From a virus: DNA of 20,302 bases. The notes beneath the pieces are model-generated. The model saw nothing but the letters and a program-made list of their open reading frames with translations. It was not told where the DNA came from and ran no database searches. Positions 944 through 15,942 of this stretch are shown here, one piece after another. The position numbers were made by a program, and so were the translations under genes. Every line of letters starts with the position of its first letter. The first letter of the stretch is position 1. The stretch covers positions 1 to 20,302 of IMG/VR virus record IMGVR_UViG_3300010293_000048; one strand, 5' to 3'.

Positions 944-3900
944 GTGGATTTTTATCAGATTAAAGAAAGGAGCGTCAAGAATGGCGTAGTAGAAGTATAT
1001 CCTGACTTTAAGGTAGGTAGGTCTAAAGATTTAATGGTTCGTGGCAAGTCCTTCTATGCAATATGGGACGATGAGCGGCAGATATGGTCTACTGATGAAT
1101 ATGATGTTCAAAGACTTGTTGATTCTGATCTTAGTAAATATAAAGAGAAAGTATTATCAAGAACTGATGGACAGGTTGTAGTAAAATATATGGGGGACTT
1201 CTCAACAAAGTCATGGTCGTTATTTAGAAATTTTATGCAAAATATATCTGATAATGCCCACCAACTTGATGAGAATTTAACCTTTTCCAATACTGAAGTT
1301 AAAAAGAAAGATTATGTTAGTAGAAGATTGCCTTATCCATTAGAGAAAGGAAGTATAGATGCTTATGATGAAATTATCGGAACCCTCTATTCGGAAGGAG
1401 AACGTGAAAAACTCGAATGGGCTATCGGTTCTATTGTGGCGGGAGACGCAAAGGATATACAAAAGTTCATTGTATTATATGGTGAAGCAGGAGCAGGAAA
1501 ATCTACGATGCTTAATATCATTCAGAAATTATTCAGCGGATATTATACGACGTTCGAAGCAAAAGCACTCACCTCATCTAATAACGCTTTTTCCACGGAG
1601 GTGTTCAAAAGCAATCCACTGGTCGCAATTCAACATGATGGTGATCTCTCAAAGATTGAAGACAATACAAAGCTTAATTCCATAATATCTCATGAAGAGA
1701 TGACAATGAATGAGAAATATAAACCTAGTTATATGGCTAGAGTAAATTGTTTCTTGTTTATGGCCACAAATAGACCTGTTAAGATTACAGATGCAAAATC
1801 CGGTATTATTAGAAGATTAATAGATGTTCGTCCAACAGGGCAAAGGATTAATTCAAAAAGATATCAAGCATTAATGCAGCAAATAGATTTTGAACTAGGA
1901 GCCATTGCGAGGCATTGTTTAGAAGTTTATCAGCAAAGAGGAAAAAACTATTATGCGGGGTATAGACCTTTAGACATGATTTTGCAAACTGACGTTTTCT
2001 TTAACTTTGTGGAAGCGCATTATGATATTTTTAAAGAACAAAATGGCGTTACTCTATCACATGCTTATGATATTTATAAAAGGTATTGTGATGATGCTTT
2101 AGTTGAATTTAAATTGCCCAAACATAAGTTTAGGGAAGAGCTTAAAAATTATTTTGAAAGTTTTTTTGATGTAACTCGTGTAGAAGGAAAACAAATTAGA
2201 AGTTATTATTTTGGGTTTATAGCTGAAAAATTCACAACAAAAATTGTAGAAAAAAAAGATGATAAACCAATGTCTTTAGTATTAGATCATGATGAGTCTT
2301 TAATAGATGGTTTGTGCGCTGATTGTAAAGCTCAGTATGCTTCGTCTAATGATATACCAGGAAAAAAATGGGATGAAGTAGAAACCACCTTAAAAGATTT
2401 AGATACTAAAGAAACTCATTATGTAAAAGTTCCTGAAAATCATATTGTCATAGATTTTGACATTAAAGATGAAAAAGGTATAAAATCTTTAGAAAAAAAC
2501 TTGGAAGAAGCCAGTAAATGGCCACCTACATATGCAGAGTTTAGTAAAAGTGGAAAAGGAATACACCTACATTATATATATGCAGGGGATGTTACAAAAT
2601 TAAGTAGAATATATTCTGATGGCATAGAAGTAAAAGTGTTTACAGGTAAAAGCTCATTAAGAAGAAAATTTACAAAAAGTAATAATTTTCCTTTAGCTAC
2701 ATTAAAATCAGGTTTACCCTTGAAAGGAGAAAAAATGATTAATGTCGAAGCCGTTAAAAGCGAAATAGCGCTTCGAAATCTTATAAAAAGAAATCTAAAT
2801 AAAGAGTTCCATCCAGGAACAAAACCAAGTATAGACTTTATATATAAGATTCTTGAAGATGCACATAGTTCAGGTTTAGCTTATGATATTTCAGACATGT
2901 GGCAAGAAGTTTTTGTTTTTGCTAATAATAGTACTAATCAAGCCCCATATTGTTTAGATATAGTTAATAAAATGAAATTTAAATCAGAAAAAGAAAACGC
3001 TCCAATTACAAGTTATGAGGAGGAGATTCTTTTGTTTTATGATGTAGAAGTTTTTCCTAATTTATTTGTTGTGGTATATAAACCAGAAGGAAAACCCCCA
3101 GTTAAAATGATTAACCCATCTTCTTCGATGATAGAAAAACTTCTTAAATTTAAGTTAGTAGGATTTAATTGTAGAAGATATGATAATCATATTTTGTATG
3201 CTAAGTATATCGGGTACTCTATTGAGCAATTGTTTAATCTAAGTCAAAAAATTATAAATGGTAGTGCTAATGCTTTATTTAGAGAGGCATATAATTTATC
3301 ATATACTGATATTTATGACTTCTCTTCAAAAAAACAAAGTTTAAAAAAGTTTGAAATTGAATTAGGTATTCATAAACAAGAATTAGGTTTTAAATGGGAC
3401 GAACCTGTACCTGAAAAAGACTGGGATAAAGTAGCTGATTATTGCGTAAACGATGTTATAGCTACCGAAGAAACATTTAAAGCAAGAAAACAAGATTTTG
3501 TTGCCAGACTTATATTATCTGAGCTTAGTGGTCTAACTCCAAACGATACCACCCAACAGCATACTGCTAAAATTATTTTTGGAGATGATCCGAAGCCTCA
3601 AGAAAAATTTGTGTATACAGATTTATCAGAAATGTTTCCTGGGTATACTTTTGATTTTGGAAAAAGCTCATATAGATATGAAGATCCAGGAGAAGGCGGA
3701 TATGTATATGCAGAACCAGGTACAGAGTCGAATGTAGTATTATTAGATGTAGTATCGATGCACCCAACAAGTTTGATACAGTTAGATATGTTTGGGCCAT
3801 ATACACCAAAGTTTAAAGAGCTTTTAGAGGCTAGGGTGGCCATTAAACATAAAGATTTTAAGAAAGCAAAAAAAATGTTAAATGGGGTTTTAGCAAAATA

Positions 3901-4675
3901 TTTAGAGAATGAAGAACAAGCTTCGGATTTAGCTTATGCGTTAAAAATAGTTATTAATATTGTATATGGTTTAACCTCAGCAAGTTTTGAAAACAAATTT
4001 AGAGATCCTCGTAATAAAGATAATATTGTTGCAAAAAGAGGGGCTTTATTTATGATAGATTTAAAACATGCCGTGCAAGGAAAAGGGTTTCAAGTTATGC
4101 ATATTAAAACTGACTCCATAAAAATTGCTGATGCTACTGAGCAGATCATAGAGTATGTAAAAGAATTTGGCAAAAAATATGGGTATGAGTTTGAGCATGA
4201 AGAAACATTTGAAAAATTTTGTTTAGTTAATGATGCAGTATATATTGCTAAAACTTCAAAAGGAGAGTGGACTGCAACTGGTGCACAATTTGCTCATCCT
4301 TACGTATTCAAAACTTTATTTAGTAAAGAGCCAATAGAGTTTAAAGATTTCTGCGAGACAAAAGCTGTAACTACTTCTTTATATTTGGATATGAATGAGG
4401 CATTAGCTGAAGGGGAACACGATTATCATTTTGTGGGTAAAGTAGGTGAGTTCTGTCCAATTAGACCAGGATTTGGTGGTGGCATATTATTAAGAGAAAA
4501 AGAAGGGAAATACTATGCGGCAACAGGTTCAAAAGGATATCGTTGGATGGAAGCAGAAATGGTTAAAAATTTAGGAAAAGAAGAGTATATTGATCGTTCT
4601 TATTTTGCGTCCTTAGTAGATGACGCAGTAGATACAATATCTAAGTATGGAGATTTTGAGGAATTTATTTCGTAA
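944..4675 (+). CDS. replisome polyprotein: SF3 helicase + AEP primase + family B DNA polymerase
   Basis: A single 1243-residue protein starts at GTG 944 (AAGGAGA at 931-937, spacing 6). Three replication activities appear in order. (1) D5-type SF3 helicase, about 150-430: Walker A GEAGAGKST (180-188), acidic Walker B with D232/D234, sensor MATNRP with N276, then arginines in GIIRRLI. (2) Archaeo-eukaryotic primase (prim-pol), about 440-690: DFD (D504, D506), SKSGKGIHLHY (534-544, H541), GIEVKVF (E562), then a helical primase C-terminal-like part. (3) Family B polymerase with proofreading exonuclease, about 697-1243: exo I DVE (D700, E702), exo II GFNCRRYDN (740-748), exo III YCVND (D837), motif A LDVVSMHP (D935), motif B KIVINIVYG (1001-1009), motif C HIKTDS (D1057). 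The first Asp of the usual DTD is Lys here. It would unwind, prime and copy the phage genome. No frameshift is seen. Confidence 0.93.
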   Translation: MDFYQIKERSVKNGVVEVYPDFKVGRSKDLMVRGKSFYAIWDDERQIWSTDEYDVQRLVDSDLSKYKEKVLSRTDGQVVVKYMGDFSTKSWSLFRNFMQNISDNAHQLDENLTFSNTEVKKKDYVSRRLPYPLEKGSIDAYDEIIGTLYSEGEREKLEWAIGSIVAGDAKDIQKFIVLYGEAGAGKSTMLNIIQKLFSGYYTTFEAKALTSSNNAFSTEVFKSNPLVAIQHDGDLSKIEDNTKLNSIISHEEMTMNEKYKPSYMARVNCFLFMATNRPVKITDAKSGIIRRLIDVRPTGQRINSKRYQALMQQIDFELGAIARHCLEVYQQRGKNYYAGYRPLDMILQTDVFFNFVEAHYDIFKEQNGVTLSHAYDIYKRYCDDALVEFKLPKHKFREELKNYFESFFDVTRVEGKQIRSYYFGFIAEKFTTKIVEKKDDKPMSLVLDHDESLIDGLCADCKAQYASSNDIPGKKWDEVETTLKDLDTKETHYVKVPENHIVIDFDIKDEKGIKSLEKNLEEASKWPPTYAEFSKSGKGIHLHYIYAGDVTKLSRIYSDGIEVKVFTGKSSLRRKFTKSNNFPLATLKSGLPLKGEKMINVEAVKSEIALRNLIKRNLNKEFHPGTKPSIDFIYKILEDAHSSGLAYDISDMWQEVFVFANNSTNQAPYCLDIVNKMKFKSEKENAPITSYEEEILLFYDVEVFPNLFVVVYKPEGKPPVKMINPSSSMIEKLLKFKLVGFNCRRYDNHILYAKYIGYSIEQLFNLSQKIINGSANALFREAYNLSYTDIYDFSSKKQSLKKFEIELGIHKQELGFKWDEPVPEKDWDKVADYCVNDVIATEETFKARKQDFVARLILSELSGLTPNDTTQQHTAKIIFGDDPKPQEKFVYTDLSEMFPGYTFDFGKSSYRYEDPGEGGYVYAEPGTESNVVLLDVVSMHPTSLIQLDMFGPYTPKFKELLEARVAIKHKDFKKAKKMLNGVLAKYLENEEQASDLAYALKIVINIVYGLTSASFENKFRDPRNKDNIVAKRGALFMIDLKHAVQGKGFQVMHIKTDSIKIADATEQIIEYVKEFGKKYGYEFEHEETFEKFCLVNDAVYIAKTSKGEWTATGAQFAHPYVFKTLFSKEPIEFKDFCETKAVTTSLYLDMNEALAEGEHDYHFVGKVGEFCPIRPGFGGGILLREKEGKYYAATGSKGYRWMEAEMVKNLGKEEYIDRSYFASLVDDAVDTISKYGDFEEFIS
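2723..2737 (+). promoter_or_regulatory. internal ribosome binding site and in-frame ATG within the replisome gene
   Basis: AAAGGAG at 2723-2729, a 5-base spacer and ATG at 2735-2737 are in frame with the 944 start (residue 598, in KGEKMINVEA). Initiation here would give a 646-residue product with the primase C-terminal-like region plus the complete polymerase, without helicase and primase catalytic core. Lys-Gly-Glu codons can produce such a sequence by chance, so use is inferred, not shown. Confidence 0.35.
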
Positions 4676-7293: not shown

Positions 7294-9975
7294 ATGAATG
7301 TCTTAAAACATTATGGTATGCCTCGACGTTCGGGGCGATATCCATGGGGTAGTGGCGAAGAACCGTTTCAAAGAGGAGCCTCGTTTTTAAGAGAATATAA
7401 TGATTTAAGAAAAAAAGGAATGTCTGATGTTGAAATAGCTGAAGGTTGGGGTATGAAATCAGGTGAGCTGCGTTCAAGAAAAACGATTGCCCGTTCTGAA
7501 ATGAGAGCTGATTTATATGCAGAAGCAGTTAGATTAAAAAATAAAGGATATTCAGATAGCGAAATAGGAAGGAAAATGGGGAAAAATGAATCCTCTATTA
7601 GAGCATTATTAGACCCAGTTCTTCAAGAGAGATCGCAAAGAGTTTCCTCATTAGCTAATGTTTTAAAAACTAGTGTTGACGAAAAAAAATATATAGATGT
7701 GGGCTTAGGTATTGAAAATCATTTAGGCGAAAGCCGAACAATGTTAAAAGCAGCAGTTCAAAAGTTAAAACAAGACGGTTATACAATCCATTTTGTTAAA
7801 GTGCCACAAGCAGGCACATCACATAATACGCATATGATGGTTTTGGCTCCTCCAGGAACAGATTGGAAAGAAGTTGAGGCCCATAAAGATCAAATTCAAT
7901 TACCTATGAACCATCAAGTTCTCGAGGAGGGTAGATCTTATTATGGTTTAGGCCCTATAAAAAGTATTTCTTCTAAAGAAGTGTATGTTCGCTATAATGA
8001 AGAAGGCGGGGCAGATAAAGATGGGGTTATTGAAATAAGAAGAGGTGTAGAAAATTTAGATCTAGGGCAAGCTAATTATGCCCAAGTTAGAATAGGTGTA
8101 GACGGAACACATTATCTAAAAGGGATGGCGATGTATGCGGATGATATTCCTGAAGGTTATAATGTGATTTATAATACAAATAAAAAACAAGGTACATCTA
8201 AAGAAAAAGTATTTAAAGCAATGACTGAAGACCCAGACAATCCGTTTGGCGCTCAGATTAAAAAAGGTGGGCAAAGAGGTTCTTTAAATATAGTATATGA
8301 AGAAGGTGATTGGGAAAAATGGTCTAAATCTTTGTCTTCTCAAATATTGTCGAAGCAAGGCCGACCATTAGTAACTCAGCAATTGGATTTAGCTTACAAA
8401 ATAAAAAACGAAGAATACGAAAGTATACTAGCCTTAAACAATCCCGTAATAAGAAAAAAACTTCTTACGTCATTTGCGGATGACGCAGATTCAGCTTCTG
8501 TACATTTAAAAGCAGCAGCATTACCAAGACAAGGCTGGCATACTATTCTGCCATTCCCTAAAATGAATCCACAAGAAATATATGCGCCCAATTACAATGA
8601 TGGGGAACAGGTGGTGCTTATTAGATATCCGCATGGTGGAACATTTGAAATCCCCACTTTAACAGTAAATAATAGACAGCCATTAATAAGTAAAATCATA
8701 GGCAGAGCAAGAGATGCAGTTGGTATACACCCAAAGGTGGCAGAAAGATTATCTGGTGCAGATTTTGATGGGGATTCAGTATTAGTTATTCCTACAAATG
8801 GGAAAACTATAAAAACTACCTCGCCTTTGACCGGTTTACAAAATTTTAGCCCAAGAGAATCTTATCCGCCTTATGATGGAATGAAAACTATGGATGGTGG
8901 GATTTGGAATGAAGCTAAAGGTGAAGTAGATTTTAAAGGTAAATCGCCAAGTTCGAGATCCAAAGGATTACAAATGGGTAATATTTCAAATTTAATAACT
9001 GATATGACAATTAGAGGCGCAGTTGATGACGAAATAGCTAGAGCAGTAAGGCATTCAATGGTGGTAATTGATGCTGAAAAACACCACTTAAATTATAAAA
9101 AATCATTTGTAGATAATGGTATTGCTGCTTTGAAAAAAAGATATCAAGGTAGAGAAGATGCAGGAGCATCGACGATCATTTCAAGAGCTTCTTCTGATAA
9201 ACCGGTTCCGCATAGAAGCGAGTATTTTGATATTGATCCTAAAACAGGTAAAAAAATATGGACCTATACAAATGAGATTAGCACTAAAATAACAATTAAT
9301 AAAAAAGGTGAAAAGATTATAAAGACTATGCCTAAGATAACAATGTCTACTAAAATGTTAGAAGTAGAAGACGCAAGAGAATTATCTTCGGGCACTATAG
9401 TTGAAGGTATTTATGCTACATATGCTAATAAACTAAAAGCATTAGCTAATCAAGCAAGAAAAGCAGCTTATCATACTAAGAGCGTGAGAGTTTCAGAAAC
9501 AGCAAGAAAAGCCTATGCCCCTGAAGTTCAGTCTTTAATGGCTAAATTAAATATAGCTTTAAAGAATGCTCCTTTAGAAAGACAGGCCCAATTATTAGCA
9601 GATAAAGTAGTTAGAATGAAAGTGGACGAGAACCCTCATCTAAAGAAAGATTACGCCACCTTAAAAAAGATTAAAGGCCAGGCAATAGCAGAAGCTAGGG
9701 TGCGTAATGGAGCGTCTAAGAATAGAGTAGATTTTACACCTCGTGAATGGGAAGCAGTTCAAGCTGGGGCATTTACGCATAATGTTTTAACTAAATTAAT
9801 AGACAATTCGGATATTGATAAAGTAAAAACGTATGCTACCCCTCGCCCAACAAATGCTCTTTCCCCTGCTAAATTAGCTAAAGCTAAGGCCATGAAGAAA
9901 TCAGGTTATACAGCTGCTGAAATAGCTCAATCAATAGGTGTTTCTGTAACAACAATTAATAAGGTTACGAAATAG
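7294..9975 (+). CDS. RNA-polymerase-like protein (DFDGD double-psi beta-barrel) with helix-turn-helix domains and HYG-type N-terminal tag
   Basis: An 893-residue protein. Residues 4-22 carry LKHYGMPRRSGRYPWGSG, related to the HYG tag of three head-region proteins here. Two helix-turn-helix-like repeats follow (about 31-63 and 75-107, both with KKG/NKG then D-x-EI) and a third closes the protein (about 856-893, GYTAAEIAQSIGVSVTTI). In the middle, LIRYPHGG (442-449) is followed by RLSGADFDGDSVLVIP, with D490, D492 and D494 matching the Mg-binding NADFDGD loop of the RNA polymerase beta' subunit and YonO-like phage polymerases. THYLKGMAMY (272-281, K276) could belong to the partner beta-like barrel. 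It may transcribe phage late genes; a DNA-binding protein that only borrows the fold is the alternative. I recall relatives in many Bacillota phages, mostly annotated only as helix-turn-helix proteins. Strong ribosome binding site (TGGAGGGG). Confidence 0.75.
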   Translation: MNVLKHYGMPRRSGRYPWGSGEEPFQRGASFLREYNDLRKKGMSDVEIAEGWGMKSGELRSRKTIARSEMRADLYAEAVRLKNKGYSDSEIGRKMGKNESSIRALLDPVLQERSQRVSSLANVLKTSVDEKKYIDVGLGIENHLGESRTMLKAAVQKLKQDGYTIHFVKVPQAGTSHNTHMMVLAPPGTDWKEVEAHKDQIQLPMNHQVLEEGRSYYGLGPIKSISSKEVYVRYNEEGGADKDGVIEIRRGVENLDLGQANYAQVRIGVDGTHYLKGMAMYADDIPEGYNVIYNTNKKQGTSKEKVFKAMTEDPDNPFGAQIKKGGQRGSLNIVYEEGDWEKWSKSLSSQILSKQGRPLVTQQLDLAYKIKNEEYESILALNNPVIRKKLLTSFADDADSASVHLKAAALPRQGWHTILPFPKMNPQEIYAPNYNDGEQVVLIRYPHGGTFEIPTLTVNNRQPLISKIIGRARDAVGIHPKVAERLSGADFDGDSVLVIPTNGKTIKTTSPLTGLQNFSPRESYPPYDGMKTMDGGIWNEAKGEVDFKGKSPSSRSKGLQMGNISNLITDMTIRGAVDDEIARAVRHSMVVIDAEKHHLNYKKSFVDNGIAALKKRYQGREDAGASTIISRASSDKPVPHRSEYFDIDPKTGKKIWTYTNEISTKITINKKGEKIIKTMPKITMSTKMLEVEDARELSSGTIVEGIYATYANKLKALANQARKAAYHTKSVRVSETARKAYAPEVQSLMAKLNIALKNAPLERQAQLLADKVVRMKVDENPHLKKDYATLKKIKGQAIAEARVRNGASKNRVDFTPREWEAVQAGAFTHNVLTKLIDNSDIDKVKTYATPRPTNALSPAKLAKAKAMKKSGYTAAEIAQSIGVSVTTINKVTK

Positions 9976-9992: not shown

Positions 9993-10295
9993 ATGTCTAA
10001 ATCAATGTTAACTACCATAGACAATCCTTTTAACCCATTCACTCAATTTGATGAATGGTATGCCTATGATGTAGGAAAAGGCTACCATACTTGTGCGTAC
10101 CTTGCACGAATTGTTGTAACATCAGAAGAACTTAGTGAAGAAGATGAAAGTATAGCTATTGAAGTAGCTATTGATGAAATTTTAGATTTAAATGATTTAG
10201 GTATTTATAAGAAAGTAACAGAAGAAGATTCAATTAGTAATCAAAAGTTAGATTCTAATACACAAAGTGAAGAGTCAACAGAGTCTGATGCCTAA
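9993..10295 (+). CDS. conserved small acidic phage protein
   Basis: A 100-residue protein preceded by AAAGGAG about 10 bases before its ATG, 17 bases after the polymerase-like gene. The first part, with LTTIDNPFNPFTQFDEWYA and YHTCAYLARI, looks like a small folded domain. The middle is helical and acidic (EELSEEDESIAIEVAIDEIL) and the tail is a low-complexity Ser/Glu/Asp run. I recall this family as a small unknown that often sits just before the small terminase gene in Bacillota siphophages. No catalytic motif is visible and no function can be assigned. It is the last gene before the structured non-coding block at 10296-10528. Confidence 0.75.
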   Translation: MSKSMLTTIDNPFNPFTQFDEWYAYDVGKGYHTCAYLARIVVTSEELSEEDESIAIEVAIDEILDLNDLGIYKKVTEEDSISNQKLDSNTQSEESTESDA

Positions 10296-10300
10296 GTAAA

Positions 10301-10340
10301 CGCATAAGGGGGGGGTCTCGCGTAACATACCCCCCTTGCG
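10301..10340. other. G8/C6 hairpin at the start of the G/C-rich non-coding block
   Basis: A run of eight G (10308-10315) can pair with six C (10330-10335). AAGGGGGG...CCCCCCTT gives 8 base pairs, and a lower CGC/GCG stem continues after a two-base bulge. The loop contains CTCGCG, echoed by ATCGCG at 10342-10347. No U-tract follows directly, so it is not a plain terminator. It may be part of a cos or packaging site, or an RNA structure after the preceding gene. Confidence 0.5.
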
Positions 10341-10345
10341 TATCG

Positions 10346-10379
10346 CGCCCCTCCTAAAAAATTCTCCGGGGGTGTTTTT
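10346..10379 (+). terminator. possible intrinsic terminator
   Basis: CGCCCC (10346-10351) pairs with GGGGTG (10369-10374, one G-U pair), optionally extended by a U-G pair, around a 15-base loop. TTTTT follows at 10375-10379. The G/C stem plus U-tract is terminator-like, but the long loop makes it weaker than a classical one. The last T is also the first base of the long RNA stem described next, so the two elements may influence each other. Confidence 0.4.
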
Positions 10380-10521
10380 CTAGGCATTTTTGGCGGGGGT
10401 ACCAGGGGTTTCTAACAAAACTGGTTTGACACCGGGTTCTCCTTTCAAGAGTCGTGGTTTTTATCACGTCTGAAACTCTTGTTATCTCCACCTAAAGTGC
10501 CTAGATCTCTCTTGAAAGGAG
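10379..10521 (+). ncRNA. candidate structured regulatory RNA leader that can mask the ribosome binding site of the small terminase gene
   Basis: Hand folding shows a long closing stem P1, 10379-10401 with 10483-10505: 21 of 23 positions pair, 3 as G-U. Inside are P2 (CCAG 10402-10405 with CTGG 10421-10424) and P3 (CAAGAGT-CGTG 10446-10456 with CACG 10465-10468 and ACTCTTG 10475-10481). The unpaired joint between P2 and P3 ends in CTCCTTT (10439-10445), exactly complementary to the AAAGGAG ribosome binding site at 10515-10521. The match extends to 13 bases (10439-10451 with 10509-10521) if P3 opens. This is the layout of a translational switch with a pseudoknot. G-U pairs favour RNA over a DNA packaging site, though cos/pac remains possible. 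Confidence 0.55.
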
Positions 10522-10528
10522 TGAAAAA

Positions 10529-10873
10529 GTGTCTAAGTCAAATGATGACGAGAGACAAACTAAGAAGAAAAGACCACCAGGTACTACACCAGAAGCTAGA
10601 GAAAATCAACTGGTAGCATTGGCTATGAAATTAGCAGAGAAACAAATGATGGAAGGTACAGCTTCTTCCCAAGTTATTTCTCATTTTTTAAAATTGGGCT
10701 CTACAAGAGAGAGAATTGAGAAAGAGATTCTGCAGGAGCAAAAAGATTATTTAACTGCCAAAACAGAAGCTATGCGTTCTGCGAAAAGGGTAGAAGAACT
10801 TTATACTAATGCTCTAAACGCTATGAGAAACTATAGTGGCCAAACTATAGATGACGAGGATTATGATGACTAG
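10529..10873 (+). CDS. probable terminase small subunit
   Basis: A 114-residue, mostly helical, highly charged protein starting at GTG 10529, with AAAGGAG at 10515-10521 (spacing 7). After a basic N-terminus (RQTKKKRPPGTTPEAREN) come ENQLVALAMKLAEKQMMEG and ASSQVISHFLKLGSTRERIEKEIL, then a long helix ending near VEELYTNALNAM. The 'GTASSQVITHFLKLGSTRE'-type pattern is one I associate with small terminase-like proteins directly upstream of HNH and large terminase genes, as here. It would bind the packaging site and load the large subunit. No conserved catalytic residue is expected. Its translation may be controlled by the RNA leader upstream, since its ribosome binding site is the masked one. 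Confidence 0.65.
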   Translation: MSKSNDDERQTKKKRPPGTTPEARENQLVALAMKLAEKQMMEGTASSQVISHFLKLGSTRERIEKEILQEQKDYLTAKTEAMRSAKRVEELYTNALNAMRNYSGQTIDDEDYDD

Positions 10874-11279
10874 ATCATATTCAGAATTTAAAAAGTTGAA
10901 AACATTTAAAGAGCGATATGATTATCTTAAATTAAAAGGTGTAGTAGGTGAATCGACTTTTGGGTTTGATCGCTATATTAATCAAGCATTATACAAGTCA
11001 GAGGAATGGCAACGTATTAGAGATGAAGTAATTATACGTGATAAGGGTTGCGATTTGGGCATAAAAGAATATGAACTTCATGATCGAATTATAATTCATC
11101 ATATGAATGCGATTACCAAGAATGATATTTTAGAAAGAAGACCACATGTTTATGATCCTGAATATTTGGTGTGTGTTTCGCATCAAACGCATCAGGCTAT
11201 ACATTATGGAGATGAAGATTTGCTGCCAAAAGCGGTATTAGTAGTAAGAAAAAAAAATGATACCTGCCCGTGGAAATAG
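10866..11279 (+). CDS. HNH endonuclease of the packaging module
   Basis: A 137-residue HNH nuclease. FGFDRYINQALYKSEEWQRIR is followed by RDKGCDLG, the HH pair of the motif (IIIHHMN, H78-H79), DPEYLVCVS, and the distal THQAIHYGDE (H109, H113), ending in the NDTCPWK tail typical of this family. HNH proteins beside terminase genes are known to work with the terminase in cos-type packaging (shown for HK97 gp74). The start at 10866 is chosen because GAGGA (10856-10860) lies 5 bases before it; ATGs at 10851 and 10863 are in frame but worse placed. It overlaps the small terminase gene by 8 bases. Confidence 0.88.
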   Translation: MTRSYSEFKKLKTFKERYDYLKLKGVVGESTFGFDRYINQALYKSEEWQRIRDEVIIRDKGCDLGIKEYELHDRIIIHHMNAITKNDILERRPHVYDPEYLVCVSHQTHQAIHYGDEDLLPKAVLVVRKKNDTCPWK

Positions 11280-11290
11280 GAGGATTAAAC

Positions 11291-11656
11291 ATGGATAGTA
11301 TATTAACAGCAGTTAAACAAATGTTAGGGCTACCAGAAGAATATATCCCTTTTGACGAAACTGTGATGATGCATATTAATTCTACTTTTTTAGAATTACA
11401 TCAATTAGGGGTCGGTCCTAAAGACGGTTTTCAAATAGTAGGAAAAGAAGATCTATGGGAGGATTTTGTTATCGATCCATTGCTAATAGGTTATTTAAAA
11501 ACCTATATGTTCATGAAGGTTAAATTAATATTTGATCCTCCTACAACTTCTTTTTTATTAGATGCAATTGACCGACAAATAAATCAAATACAATGGCGAA
11601 TGACGGCACATGTAGAACCACCATTACCAGTGGTGGAGGAGGTAACAGATGAATGA
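11291..11656 (+). CDS. small connector/adaptor-like phage head protein
   Basis: A 121-residue mostly helical protein. The chosen ATG has AGGAGG at 11278-11283 (spacing 7); an upstream GTG at 11270 is in frame but would lie before that site. The pattern DETVMMHINSTFLELHQLGVG, then a Trp-containing segment, IGYLKTYMFMKVKLIFDPP and ending in QINQIQWRM, resembles small helical phage proteins usually called head-tail connector or adaptor (gp6-like). In most siphophages such adaptors follow the capsid gene; here it comes before the large terminase, so the assignment is tentative. It overlaps the next gene by 8 bases, and GGAGGAGG near its end serves that gene. Confidence 0.5.
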   Translation: MDSILTAVKQMLGLPEEYIPFDETVMMHINSTFLELHQLGVGPKDGFQIVGKEDLWEDFVIDPLLIGYLKTYMFMKVKLIFDPPTTSFLLDAIDRQINQIQWRMTAHVEPPLPVVEEVTDE

Positions 11657-12113
11657 TCAATCATATTTAGCCCACTACGGGGTCTTAGGTATGAAGTGGG
11701 GGGTGCGTAGATTAAAGAACAGACATGAAGTTTTGTCCAAAAGAGGAATGTACTTTACAAAGAATCGGGCGGATAAGGCTAAAGCAGCAAGAGAAAGAAA
11801 AATTGCTAGGATAGAGTCTAAAATAGCAGATCGAGAAAAAAATGCTATTAAGAATCTGTCTGATGATGAATTGCGTAAAAGGATAAATCGTCTTCAAATG
11901 GAGAGACAGTATGCGTCATTGAATCCTTCTGCATTAAAAAAAGGTCAAAGATTTGCGTCTAAGATTTTATTAGGGGCTGCCACTGGAGTATTAACTGGTT
12001 TAGTAGTAAAAGGTATGAATTCGGGTTTAAAAACAGCTGGGGCTAAACTTGCAGCAGCGCCAAGCGATTATATTTTAAAAGCTATAGAAAAAGCTTTGAA
12101 TAAAGCAGGATAA
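11649..12113 (+). CDS. HYG-tagged small phage head-region protein (copy 1)
   Basis: A 154-residue basic protein beginning with the tag SYLAHYGVLGMKWGVRR (5-21). A lysine/arginine-rich coiled-coil-like stretch follows (about 40-90), including DDELRKRINRLQMERQYASL, then a hydrophobic helix (about 105-121, ILLGAATGVLTGLVV) and an alanine-rich C-terminal helix. The tag recurs almost unchanged in the proteins at 13879 and 15259. Proteins with this start are frequent in phage head-gene clusters, and I know no experimentally established role for the tag. The single hydrophobic helix could be membrane-active or buried in a capsid assembly. A GGAGGAGG site stands about 8 bases before the ATG. Confidence 0.7.
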   Translation: MNDQSYLAHYGVLGMKWGVRRLKNRHEVLSKRGMYFTKNRADKAKAARERKIARIESKIADREKNAIKNLSDDELRKRINRLQMERQYASLNPSALKKGQRFASKILLGAATGVLTGLVVKGMNSGLKTAGAKLAAAPSDYILKAIEKALNKAG

Positions 12114-12120
12114 ATTCAAA

Positions 12121-13869
12121 ATGGGATTATCTAATAAAGCTACTCCCAAATACTATGCAAAGTTTAGAGAAGATGTAATCTCTGGTCGGATACCTGTATG
12201 CCGAGAAATATCTATGGAGATGAATCGTATAGATTCTTTGATTGCAAATCCAGGTATTTACTATGATGATAAAGCAGTAGATGGTTGGGTTGAGTTTTGT
12301 GAAAAGGAATTAACATTAACTGATGGATCAGATTTACATTTACTTGAGTCATTTAAATTATGGGGAGAGCAAGTATTTGGTTGGTTTTATTTTGTAGAGA
12401 GAAGTATCTACGAACCAGCCAAAGATAATTCTCATAGTGGGCGTTATGTCCGTAAGATGATTAAAAAGCGGCTGGTCTCTAAACAATACTTAATAGTAGC
12501 TCGAGGAGCAGCGAAGTCAATGTATGGCTCGTGCATCCAAAATTACTTTTTAAATGTAGATACTACAACCACTCACCAGATAACTACTGCTCCTACTATG
12601 AAACAAGCAGAAGAAGTAATGTCTCCAATACGAACAGCTATTACCAGATCTAGAGGGCCTTTGTTTCAGTTCCTAACAGAAGGATCTTTACAGAATACTA
12701 CAGGCTCAAAGATGAATAGAGTTAAATTGGCCTCAACAAAGAAGGGGATTGAAAATTTCCTTACTGGTTCTTACTTAGAAGTCAGACCTATGAGTATCGA
12801 TAAACTTCAAGGATTGCGTCCGAAAATTTCTACAATAGATGAATGGCTTTCTGGAGACATTAGAGAAGATGTTGTGGGGGCAATAGAACAAGGAGCGTCC
12901 AAATTAGACGACTACCTAATTGTGGCAATGAGTTCAGAAGGAACCGTCCGTAATAGTTCGGGGGATACAATCAAAATGGAATTAATGGACATCTTAAAAG
13001 GTGAATACATTAACCCTCATGTGTCAATTTGGTACTACAAATTAGATGATGTTCAAGAAGTTAATGACCCCGCAATGTGGATAAAGGCGAACCCGAATTT
13101 AGGCAAAACTGTTACGTACGAAACCTATCAGTTAGATGTGGAAAGAGCAGAAAAAGCTCCAGCATCTAGGAATGATATTCTTGCAAAACGTTTTGGTATT
13201 CCTATGGAAGGGTACACATATTTCTTTACTTATGAAGAAACAGTTCCTCATAGAAAAAGAAGTTTCTGGGGAATGCCCTGTGCAATGGGGGTTGACCTTT
13301 CGCAAGGAGATGACTTTTGTGCTTTTACCTTTTTATTTCCTTTAAAGAATGGGCTATTCGGCGTAAAGACAAGATGCTATATTACGTCTTTAACTCTTAT
13401 GAAACTTCCAACAGCTATGAGATTCAAGTATGAAGAATTTTTAGAAGAGTCAAGCCTCCAAGTTTTAGAAGGAACAGTGTTAGACATGGATGAAGTGTTT
13501 GATGATTTGGATAAATTTATATTAGATTCTCAGTATGATGTCCGTGCCGTAGGATACGATCCTTATAACGCTAAAGAATTTATAAACAGATGGGAACAAG
13601 AAAATGGTCCATTTGGTATAGAGAAAGTTATTCAGGGAGCAAAAACAGAGTCAGTGCCTTTAGGCGAATTAAAGAATCTTGCTGAGGAAAGAATGCTTAT
13701 ATTTGATCAGTCAATGATGTCATATACTATGGGGAATACGATCACGTTAGAAGATACAAACGGTAATCGGAAGTTATTTAAGAAGAGATACGATCAAAAG
13801 ATTGATAGTGTAGCGGCATTAATGGATGCTTGGGTAGCGTACAAGCTTAATAAAGAAGCGCTAGAGTAA
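12121..13869 (+). CDS. terL: terminase large subunit
   Basis: A 582-residue packaging motor of the HK97/Terminase_1 type, with ATPase and nuclease halves. The ATPase Walker A is ARGAAKS (127-133, K132), a variant with AAK instead of GxGK. Walker B is ISTIDEW (D240, E241), followed by MSSEGT as the coupling motif region. The RNase H-like nuclease half has GVDLSQGDD (D392), VGYDPYN (D480) and KIDSVAALMDAW (D562, D569). The N-terminus with GWVEFCEKEL and LLESFKLWGEQVFGWFYF is the usual adaptor segment. The length is normal for the family and no break is seen. The ribosome binding site is weak (AGGA about 10 bases upstream), and it begins 7 bases after the preceding stop. Confidence 0.94.
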   Translation: MGLSNKATPKYYAKFREDVISGRIPVCREISMEMNRIDSLIANPGIYYDDKAVDGWVEFCEKELTLTDGSDLHLLESFKLWGEQVFGWFYFVERSIYEPAKDNSHSGRYVRKMIKKRLVSKQYLIVARGAAKSMYGSCIQNYFLNVDTTTTHQITTAPTMKQAEEVMSPIRTAITRSRGPLFQFLTEGSLQNTTGSKMNRVKLASTKKGIENFLTGSYLEVRPMSIDKLQGLRPKISTIDEWLSGDIREDVVGAIEQGASKLDDYLIVAMSSEGTVRNSSGDTIKMELMDILKGEYINPHVSIWYYKLDDVQEVNDPAMWIKANPNLGKTVTYETYQLDVERAEKAPASRNDILAKRFGIPMEGYTYFFTYEETVPHRKRSFWGMPCAMGVDLSQGDDFCAFTFLFPLKNGLFGVKTRCYITSLTLMKLPTAMRFKYEEFLEESSLQVLEGTVLDMDEVFDDLDKFILDSQYDVRAVGYDPYNAKEFINRWEQENGPFGIEKVIQGAKTESVPLGELKNLAEERMLIFDQSMMSYTMGNTITLEDTNGNRKLFKKRYDQKIDSVAALMDAWVAYKLNKEALE

Positions 13870-13949
13870 GGAGGCAACATGTACGATGATCAATCATATT
13901 TAGCCCACTATGGCGTTTTAGGTATGAAATGGGGGATTCGAAAAAAAGT
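13868..13949. repeat. 82-bp perfect direct repeat, copy A (RBS plus HYG tag)
   Basis: Bases 13868-13949 are identical to 15248-15329. The unit covers the ribosome binding site (AAGGAGG), the ATG, and codons 1-23 with part of codon 24, that is the whole HYG tag. A third, diverged version at 11649 shares a 25-base identical core. Perfect identity including third codon positions implies recent duplication or gene conversion. Confidence 0.95.
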
Positions 13950-15153
13950 GGATTCTCCTGGGGTAAAAAAAGCTAAAGAAAATGTAAAGAAAACGAAAAA
14001 GGATTTTAAGATAGAATCTAGGAAAGTGAATCTAAAAAGTGCATTTGGTGTAGCATCGAAAGCAGATTTGGAAAAATTAGAGTCGACAGTGAGAGAGCAT
14101 TCCTATGCTAAAGATGATTTGCGAAGTACTAAAATTCTTGAAAAACTTAATAAAATTAAGAAATCAGAAAAGCAATTAACTTTGGAAAAAGAATATCAAA
14201 AAAAAGGAATGTCCCCAGACGAAGCAGCAGTAGCAGCCTATCAAAATATAAGAACTAAAAAAATATTAATGGGGGTAGCTGCCGTGGCAGTAGTAGCGGG
14301 CGGGGCATATGCTACTTATAAGTATAGAGAACACAATATAGATAAAATTTTAAAAAGTGGTACCATGTTGCAAAATGTTTCGAGCGACGGTACTCTTGGC
14401 GTTAGAGATGTTTTTTATACTACAGATAACGGCCTTGACAAAATTAAATACCGGGGGCTTTATGGTTATGTTTTAAAACTAAAAGAGGGTAATGCGTATA
14501 CTAAGAATATTGAAATATTATCGGATATTAAACAGGCATCGCCTAAAGCTGCTGAAAAAATTCTAGGAGAATTATATAAAAGTGATCCTAATTTTGCTAA
14601 GGTTTTAACAAATGCTGTAAACAATACTTTCTTAGAAATGTCCCCCATTTATATGAGAAAGGTGAAAAAAGCTAGACAAAGTATAGGAGCAGGAATAATT
14701 GATAAAAATGTTTATGAAGTATTTAATGCGTCCTTGGTTGATCATGGCCTAGTTCAACAAACGGCAACTGATCGATATTTACAGGAGCTGGCAAGAAAAG
14801 GATACAATGCAATAAAAGATGTTAACGACTCGAAATATTCTGGGTATGGAGCTATAAATCCTATAATAACTTTCGATACGAAAGGAAAAATAGCAGTAAA
14901 ATCAGTACAAGAATTAGTAGGCCCCCAATTAGTTAAGGATGCAGTTAAAGGAAATGCTATGGTTTTTGTGCCTCAATTAGCTGGATATGGAGGAGTTTAT
15001 GCTGGTTATAAGGCAGGAATTAAAAAGTTTGACGATGTAGCGCAATCAAAAATAAGAGATAATTATGTAAAGGACTATCGTAAAAAACATCCTGATACAA
15101 AAATGTCGAACACTGAAATTTACAGAATGATAGAAAGGTCGAAAAACAAATGA
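13879..15153 (+). CDS. HYG-tagged membrane-segment protein with an unidentified C-terminal domain (copy 2)
   Basis: A 424-residue protein with the tag YLAHYGVLGMKWGIRKK (7-23), a long lysine-rich coiled-coil-like region (about 25-125), one clear hydrophobic helix (about 129-147, AVAVVAGGAYATY), then a roughly 200-residue globular domain. That domain includes GTLGVRDVFYTT, KIKYRGLYGYVL, VYEVFNASLVDH, and a C-terminal RKGYNAIKDVND...INPIITFD (about 306-333). The last part resembles the C-terminal strands of ADP-ribosyltransferase-like or related effector folds in phage head proteins, but I cannot place a full catalytic set, so no enzyme activity is claimed. A weaker hydrophobic stretch lies near 361-376. 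It sits between terminase and portal. AAGGAGG stands about 8 bases before the ATG. Confidence 0.7.
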   Translation: MYDDQSYLAHYGVLGMKWGIRKKVDSPGVKKAKENVKKTKKDFKIESRKVNLKSAFGVASKADLEKLESTVREHSYAKDDLRSTKILEKLNKIKKSEKQLTLEKEYQKKGMSPDEAAVAAYQNIRTKKILMGVAAVAVVAGGAYATYKYREHNIDKILKSGTMLQNVSSDGTLGVRDVFYTTDNGLDKIKYRGLYGYVLKLKEGNAYTKNIEILSDIKQASPKAAEKILGELYKSDPNFAKVLTNAVNNTFLEMSPIYMRKVKKARQSIGAGIIDKNVYEVFNASLVDHGLVQQTATDRYLQELARKGYNAIKDVNDSKYSGYGAINPIITFDTKGKIAVKSVQELVGPQLVKDAVKGNAMVFVPQLAGYGGVYAGYKAGIKKFDDVAQSKIRDNYVKDYRKKHPDTKMSNTEIYRMIERSKNK

Positions 15154-15269
15154 AATCAAAAAAGATATTTTTAGTTTTATTATTGGCTTTTCTTTTAAAA
15201 AAAGTAAAAGTAGGCCCTTGTTCTTCTGAATTAGAAGAGATATTAGCAAGGAGGCAACATGTACGATGA
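15150..15269 (+). CDS. small hydrophobic ORF, 39 codons
   Basis: The ATG overlaps the previous stop as ATGA (15150-15153), and the frame ends at TGA 15267-15269 inside the next gene. The peptide starts MKSKKIFLVLLLAFLLKK, a short basic then hydrophobic segment like a signal anchor, followed by one Cys in VGPCSSELEEIL. GAAAGG at 15133-15138 is about 11 bases upstream, and the tight overlaps suggest coupled translation. It fills the only space between two tagged genes. It could be real or a fortuitous frame; no homologue is recognised. Confidence 0.4.
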   Translation: MKSKKIFLVLLLAFLLKKVKVGPCSSELEEILARRQHVR

Positions 15270-15329
15270 TCAATCATATTTAGCCCACTATGGCGTTTTA
15301 GGTATGAAATGGGGGATTCGAAAAAAAGT
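15248..15329. repeat. 82-bp perfect direct repeat, copy B (RBS plus HYG tag)
   Basis: Identical to 13868-13949, offset by exactly 1380 bases. Recombination between the copies would remove the 424-residue gene and the small ORF, and would place the 15259 reading frame under the upstream copy of the ribosome binding site and tag without disturbing the frame. Confidence 0.95.
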
Positions 15330-15942
15330 ATCAGGTTATATTCGGACTAGAAAAGCAAATGAAATTGCTTATCGTAAAAAGCTAAGAAAAATATTAAAAA
15401 ATCCTTCGGTAAAAGGCACTTCGGATGCAAAAAGATTTGAATGGCGTAATCGTCCATATTCAACAATAATTGCAACAACAGCTGCTAAAAAAGCAGCATT
15501 GCCTTTAATGGCAGTAGGGGTATTAACAGTAGCAGGAAGGCCCATAAGTAAAAAACAGATGCTCTCATTAGCTAAAAATATTGCATTTAAAACAGCTTTT
15601 GAGATTGCCACAAAGGACGCATTGGCTAAATCAGCTGCAAATAAATACCAAGATCACGGAACTAGAAAACCCGGAAAGGCTAGAGGGCTAAACGATTTAG
15701 TATCTAAAGAAGATTTAATGGAGGCAGGCTTGCATGCAGCAGTAATGGGAGCAAAAGCAGGTCACCACTATTATAATGTACAAAGAAAGAAAAAATTCGT
15801 TGACGCAGTTCGCAGAGCCGCAGAAGATAAAAGAGTGTTTGATCGTTGGGGTGGTAGATTGTTGCAAGAAAAAGTCGATAATGTAATTTGGCAATCAGAT
15901 GATTTACAATTGGCGGTTATTGACAATATTAGAAGGCCTTAA
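15259..15942 (+). CDS. HYG-tagged head-region protein (copy 3)
   Basis: A 227-residue very basic protein. The first 23 residues, tag included (YLAHYGVLGMKWGIRKK), are identical to those of the 13879 product. The rest is unrelated in sequence: an Arg/Lys-rich segment, a hydrophobic helix (about 82-94, LPLMAVGVLTVAG), a long alanine-rich helical middle (AFKTAFEIATKDALAKSA), and a C-terminal part with FDRWGGRLLQEK. No catalytic motif is seen. Its place just before the portal, 13 bases upstream, suggests a head or portal-associated role, or an internal head protein. It looks like a different body joined to a shared N-terminal cassette. Confidence 0.7.
   Translation: MYDDQSYLAHYGVLGMKWGIRKKVSGYIRTRKANEIAYRKKLRKILKNPSVKGTSDAKRFEWRNRPYSTIIATTAAKKAALPLMAVGVLTVAGRPISKKQMLSLAKNIAFKTAFEIATKDALAKSAANKYQDHGTRKPGKARGLNDLVSKEDLMEAGLHAAVMGAKAGHHYYNVQRKKKFVDAVRRAAEDKRVFDRWGGRLLQEKVDNVIWQSDDLQLAVIDNIRRP

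Follow-up and report, generated by a model that had tools for sequence, protein, structure and literature searches.

What kind of element occupies the gap ahead of the gene at positions 10529..10873 of this phage contig (G000; the whole stretch of 20302 bases is referred to here as the window)? The initial annotation had proposed a structured RNA leader with a closing stem, two inner hairpins and a junction segment able to pair with the Shine-Dalgarno (SD) sequence of the following gene. The predicted fold agrees with this outline. The minimum free energy (MFE) of 10379-10528 is -59.8 kcal/mol, compared with -37.3 +/- 3.7 kcal/mol for dinucleotide shuffles (z = -6.06), and none of 200 shuffles folds as well. 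The closing stem of 21 pairs in 23 positions (12+2+7) was recovered as originally described and is prolonged inward by 10 further pairs in the MFE fold, giving a stem (P1) whose arms, 10379..10412 and 10472..10505 on the + strand, are 76% complementary and are delimited by the MFE fold, arm complementarity and covariation. Both inner hairpins are likewise present in the MFE fold: P2 (10421..10435, +), whose loop reads TGGTGA in many relatives, including nearly all of the window's group, and not in the window itself, and P3 (10450..10471, +), which is conserved in neither sequence nor length. Between them lies an anti-SD octamer, CTCCTTTC (10439..10446, +), which is unpaired in the MFE fold (mean unpaired probability 0.84). 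Its complementarity extends to 10451, such that CTCCTTTCAAGAG (10439-10451) is 100% complementary to CTCTTGAAAGGAG (10509..10521, +), a segment comprising the SD sequence GAAAGGAG (10514-10521) and its flank; no second perfect copy of this 13-mer is present elsewhere in the window. The 13-base pairing had been expected to compete with P3 for positions 10446-10451; the overlap is real but in the MFE fold is confined to 10450-10451, and competition would hence be slight. On the comparative data presented below, the predicted hairpin is beyond chance.

The element lies in the intergenic region 10296-10528, within the gene order RNA-polymerase-like protein (PHROG 4291), PHROG 4303, intergenic region, PHROG 4259, HNH endonuclease, connector-like protein and terminase large subunit (TerL). 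Complete linear relatives have the left terminus CCTTGAAATTTCCCCGCGGGG (GantcherGoblin) or CCTCGAAATTTCCCCGGGGGG (Schwartz33) and the right terminus GCATCGCC..CCT, and the cos motif opens around 60 records and contigs of the collection, some being duplicate entries. Since the same terminal join occurs at 10352|10353 (right end ...GCGCCCCT, left end CCTAAAAAATTCTCCGGGGG; strand-neutral, placed from the termini of complete linear phage records), the window appears to span the cos site, with the two genome ends joined as they would be in a circle or a concatemer. An inverted repeat of a G-run and a C-run (10308..10335, strand-neutral) forms part of the cos region by the right genome end; its pattern, GGGG..GTCTC..CCCC followed by CATCGC, recurs at the right end of GantcherGoblin, partly in Schwartz33, and also in L002 and L005. 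With the cut at this position, 26 bases separate the left genome end from the start of the hairpin, and the packaged genome would have the PHROG 4303 gene (9993..10295, +), assigned by its PHROG match and last at the right genome end, at one terminus and the PHROG 4259 gene at the other. GantcherGoblin has this arrangement too, and its last gene by position also encodes a PHROG-4303-like protein.

Several other features of the window were recorded. The 893-residue RNA-polymerase-like protein (7294-9975) carries a PHROG label of RNA-dependent RNA polymerase and has a catalytic-type motif visible in its sequence, ADFDGD, resembling NADFDGD, together with a C-terminal helix-turn-helix; its GantcherGoblin relative is annotated as a helix-turn-helix protein only. 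Three otherwise unlike proteins (11649-12113, which matches DUF7211, 13879-15153 and 15259-15942) share a near-identical N-terminal peptide (QSYLAHYGVLGMKWGIR/VRK), perhaps a tag for packaging or processing, and the N-terminus of the RNA-polymerase-like protein is the related LKHYGMPRRSGRYPWG. The gap ahead of the replicase gene (696-849) contains inverted and repeated AAAAAAGTGTAACA motifs and is a possible origin or regulatory site. The replicase gene itself (944-4675) encodes a 1243-residue primase/helicase-DNA polymerase fusion (PHROG 4210), apparently related to the four-in-one replicase GP55 of Lactococcus phage 1706 (PMC12205980).

The first gene behind the element (10529..10873, +), which begins with GTG, had been labelled as small terminase, a label for which we found no profile or fold match. 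Its product belongs to PHROG 4259, a group of unknown function, matches no Pfam family above the cut-off, and is modelled by AlphaFold as two helices (pTM 0.38) with no PDB match at E <= 0.001. Its position beside the genes for the HNH endonuclease (PHROG 4321; 10851..11279, +) and TerL (12121..13869, +) still allows a small terminase identity. The further proposal that the leader is a switch timing DNA packaging fared no better: no trigger or ligand emerged for a switch, and a different open reading frame follows the element in Arthrobacter phage Paella, Lactococcus phage P118 and several contigs (for example L006, L087 and L110). The element goes with the leader of the late operon, close to cos, and not with an established small terminase gene.

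A nucleotide search of the phage collection returned no match, and homologues were therefore sought via the PHROG 4259 protein and its alignments, which were used to gather loci from viral contigs, phage records and bacterial genome contigs. The collected loci are mostly from Clostridia, with additional representatives from Bacilli and actinobacterial phages, although the titles of metagenome-assembled genomes are not always reliable as an indication of host. The earliest examples were found by their octamer; a strand-neutral search for long inverted repeats ahead of the gene, in which the octamer was not required, then yielded 85 dereplicated leaders and subsequently 45 further independent ones. 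Approximately 130 dereplicated leaders are thus represented in phages and prophages of the Firmicutes and Actinobacteria. In the 85-leader set the arms measure 26-57 nt and the loops 37-125 nt (5th to 95th percentile), and the stem ends a median of 36 nt before a start codon, close upstream as in SD-sequestering leaders that act in cis. The hairpin at 10379-10505 is a member of an undescribed RNA family, usually sited behind the inferred cos cut and ahead of the gene that opens the packaging region. Six of the contigs (L046, L117, L118, L119, L120 and L121) share GTTTCCCAGTCACGATC as their first 17 bases, a sequence that resembles a sequencing or amplification primer retained in the public contigs.

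Base-pairing in P1 has been retained during extensive sequence divergence. In an alignment of the window's group (A2, 16 sequences), 92.6% of cells pair and two-sided compensatory changes are found at 16 of the 17 P1 pairs; none of 500 shuffles reaches the observed covariation, and sliding by a single base halves the pairing. The actinobacterial group (A3, 7 sequences) gives 97.8% pairing and two-sided changes at 25 of 34 pairs, although the slid control flatters this alignment because its structure was derived from the same sequences. Opposed mismatches reveal the strand: on the + strand of the 85 leaders there are 218 G.U against 69 A.C opposites (p = 4e-19, for sequences that are not independent), or 63 loci against 8 when counted by locus, and the second set of 45 leaders gives 143 against 26 (361 against 95 for both sets combined). 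The actinobacterial members taken alone exhibit no such asymmetry. As G.U far exceeds A.C, the element was placed on the coding (+) strand, and the proposal of a structured RNA on this strand withstood the shuffled and slid controls, which P1 covariation far exceeds. Covariation had also been anticipated for P3 and for the pairing of the octamer with the SD sequence; it is strong in P1, but P3 is not conserved and position-wise compensation between octamer and SD was not seen.

This asymmetry bears on two other readings. A minus-strand RNA carrying an SD sequence and a start codon in its loop, either as a ribosome-binding RNA or to encode a leader peptide, would account for the octamer reading GAAAGGAG on that strand, with a start codon at a workable distance in some members by inspection. 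The start codon is not a general feature, every gene listed for GantcherGoblin is on the + strand, and we rejected such a transcript on the wobble asymmetry, even though the actinobacterial members alone are undecided on this point; we consider it very improbable. The second reading is that of a DNA element beside cos, acting as a packaging site or as a single-strand initiation site for the phage replicase. The + strand bias is most simply read as RNA, but a single DNA strand would likewise favour G.T over A.C, and the distance between the element and the left genome end is usually no more than a few hundred bases. An obligatory cos or packaging element is nevertheless at odds with Microbacterium phage Damascus, in which the element is 2.1 kb from the left end and cos, and with Streptomyces phage Rima, Rhodococcus phage ReqiPoco6 and contig L007, which possess the cos motif and no such element; in Gordonia phages there is at most a different hairpin. 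A replicase priming site does not fit the preference for CCAAC observed for the replicase of phage 1706, a member of the same phage group (PMC12205980). We regard a DNA-level role as improbable; both it and the minus-strand RNA are less likely than either action in trans or a processing or protein-binding site, which are considered below.

The hallmark of the family is the exposed octamer CUCCUUUC, the complement of the SD sequence GAAAGGAG, which is found in 107 of the 130 leaders. It occurs in 70 of the 85 loops, where 0.28 occurrences are expected in shuffled loops, and in 37 of the 45 independent leaders, and its single-strandedness (0.75) exceeds the loop average (0.54, p = 2e-15). The loop is otherwise variable and the flanks are weakly conserved, with U before the octamer and a purine after it. 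Thus the anti-SD segment picked out in the window is genuine, exposed and near-invariant across relatives. Two members (L002 and L003) keep the stem and lack the octamer; in octamer-free leaders the hexamers TCCTTT, CTCCTT, CCTTTC and CCTCCT are the most frequent. The octamer is unlikely to mimic the 3' end of 16S rRNA, which has C at the position preceding the equivalent of the anti-SD octamer, since the octamer is preceded by U in 77% of these leaders and by C in 4%.

It is conceivable that the stem serves as an RNase III site or as a 5' shield of the late mRNA, with a phage or host protein bound to the loop and the likeness to an anti-SD sequence incidental. The long, strongly conserved double-stranded stem would suit this function, as would an octamer that is frequently embedded in a U/C-rich stretch and stays invariant whatever the SD sequence. 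Complementarity to the complete SD consensus would then be a coincidence, and substitutes for the octamer are often still anti-SD-like (CCTCCT, CTCCTT, TCTCCC). A processing, stability or protein-binding element is therefore unlikely in our estimation, but it is the strongest of the competing explanations.

If the octamer pairs with the SD sequence of the gene behind it, the two should fit one another better than chance. Among the SD sequences of the first genes, 69 of 107 can form all 8 pairs with the octamer when G.U is admitted, compared with 24% of those of other genes at the same loci; after stratification by SD strength (16S complementarity) the excess is reduced to 69 observed against 57 expected (p = 2e-4). 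This excess may belong to the gene and not to the element, because the gene keeps its SD sequence where the hairpin is missing or displaced: an 8-bp match precedes the same gene at 20 of 39 loci without an adjacent element (51%), against 69 of 107 (64%; p = 0.18). Loops paired better with their own SD than with swapped ones in the discovery set (101 leaders, p = 0.005), and the control with second-gene SDs gave p = 0.42. The 45 independent leaders exhibited no such advantage (p = 0.37), the pooled 130 gave p = 0.017, and the first test, which used the octamer only, gave p = 0.10; the lone value of 0.005 is to be discounted because the question of pairing in cis was tested several times. In registers fixed beforehand, no position-wise compensation between the octamer and the SD was detected, and the octamer is far more constant than the adjoining SDs. 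Strict coevolution of the two is consequently weak and was not replicated.

Divergent loops accompanied by matching SDs do occur (L117, UACUCUCCUC/GAGGAGAGUA; L072, CUCCCCCU/AGGGGGAG; L046, UCUCCCCU/AGGGGAGA). We do not take this trio as proof of compensation, as the L046 loop pairs still better with the SDs of its relatives. At eight loci with an intervening open reading frame the SD of that frame still pairs over 6-8 bases, and actinobacterial members often possess a AGGAGGTGA-type SD with which pairing extends over only about 4-6 bases. The claim that the leader pairs with its own SD finds backing in the exact 13-base match in the window, in the discovery set and in some divergent pairs, but is weakened by the independent set, the lack of position-wise compensation and the comparison with loci lacking the element. 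We read the loop as a probable generic anti-SD segment for which the nearest SD would be the natural partner.

A generic anti-SD loop might equally act elsewhere. A hairpin excised from the late transcript, or made separately, could pair through its CUCCUUUC loop with the SDs of many mRNAs, and the octamer does fit the general Gram-positive SD, is far more constant than its neighbour, and stands ahead of different genes. The C-rich loops of the staphylococcal RNAs RsaA and RNAIII act in this manner (PMC3961350). Against a trans-acting RNA, the element seldom lies more than some tens of bases from a start codon, and neither a promoter-like site above chance (a sigma-70 promoter included) nor a flanking terminator was found near it. 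We therefore rate action in trans as rather unlikely, and more doubtful still is the specific version in which hairpin RNA released from the late transcript would damp SD-led host or early phage mRNAs while the late operon is expressed.

The reading that we tentatively prefer, as possible and not as probable, is a conserved cis-acting RNA element in the 5'-UTR at the start of the packaging or late region, acting via its anti-SD loop. The element probably controls translation, with the adjacent gene as the putative target. This best explanation starts from a structure, strand, position and exposed near-invariant octamer that are established by the comparisons above, and would add to them pairing in cis, repression, release and perhaps a role in timing. 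The long stem P1 would hold out a large loop and keep CUCCUUUC single-stranded; on the emerging mRNA the loop would engage the strong SD of the first gene downstream, competing with 16S rRNA for ribosome entry, and the SD would be freed if P1 were opened or cut, for instance by the host's RNase III, an enzyme that typically acts on stems of this type. In the window P1 spans 34 positions, and since only 8 nt join it to GAAAGGAG, A-form length suggests that the full stem together with octamer-SD pairing would be strained; the loop would need to fold back along P1, or P1 would have to open in part. There are precedents both for anti-SD capture within one mRNA (PMC6733600) and for C-rich loops that mask SDs with the involvement of RNase III (PMC3961350).

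At the gathering score, Rfam 15 gave no matches in the window or in 10 related loci, and a permissive scan returned only matches to eukaryotic families (E 0.2-0.26). A known Rfam RNA, including the phi29 pRNA family, was accordingly rejected. The packaging RNA of phi29 is a structured RNA whose gene adjoins the packaging genes at the very left end of the genome; our element likewise lies at the left end near such genes, but it lacks an Rfam match and is missing from several relatives. The leader of phage lambda N contains an RNase III hairpin ahead of a ribosome-binding site and resembles the element as a phage leader hairpin possibly relieved by cleavage; it precedes an early gene, however, has no anti-SD octamer that we know of, and is not demonstrably homologous. 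Closer in operation are the RNAIII and RsaA RNAs of Staphylococcus aureus, stably folded Gram-positive RNAs linked to RNase III (PMC3961350), with which the element shares an unpaired C-rich loop complementary to SDs. The staphylococcal RNAs are transcripts of their own that act in trans and have a UCCC motif, whereas the element stands ahead of a phage open reading frame and has a near-invariant 8-nt motif on one long stem. In the aapA3 type I toxin mRNA of Helicobacter pylori an anti-SD situated upstream is able to capture the message's own SD (PMC6733600); the SD-masking hairpins of this short message are local or end-to-end, in contrast to a motif that is constant across phages and carried in a long-stem loop. 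The element would work as known anti-SD RNAs do, and kinship with them is a candidate relationship. No description of such an element was found in the literature searched, a limited search outside which most subscription journals lie.

That a structured RNA has persisted in phages of two bacterial phyla while its sequence was almost completely replaced, usually with the same exposed anti-SD, suggests an important role. Since members are present in phages of culturable hosts (Arthrobacter, Microbacterium and Lactococcus), roles in translation, RNA processing and packaging are directly amenable to experiment. No second octamer-bearing hairpin was found in the rest of the GantcherGoblin genome or of the window. 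The Arthrobacter phages Darby, Caterpillar, Paella and Shiba (L024, L031, L032 and L033) have, in addition to the octamer hairpin, one to several other long hairpins in the stretch from cos to the first genes (left ends, approximately 60-400), and some of their loops share GGTCTCAGAG.
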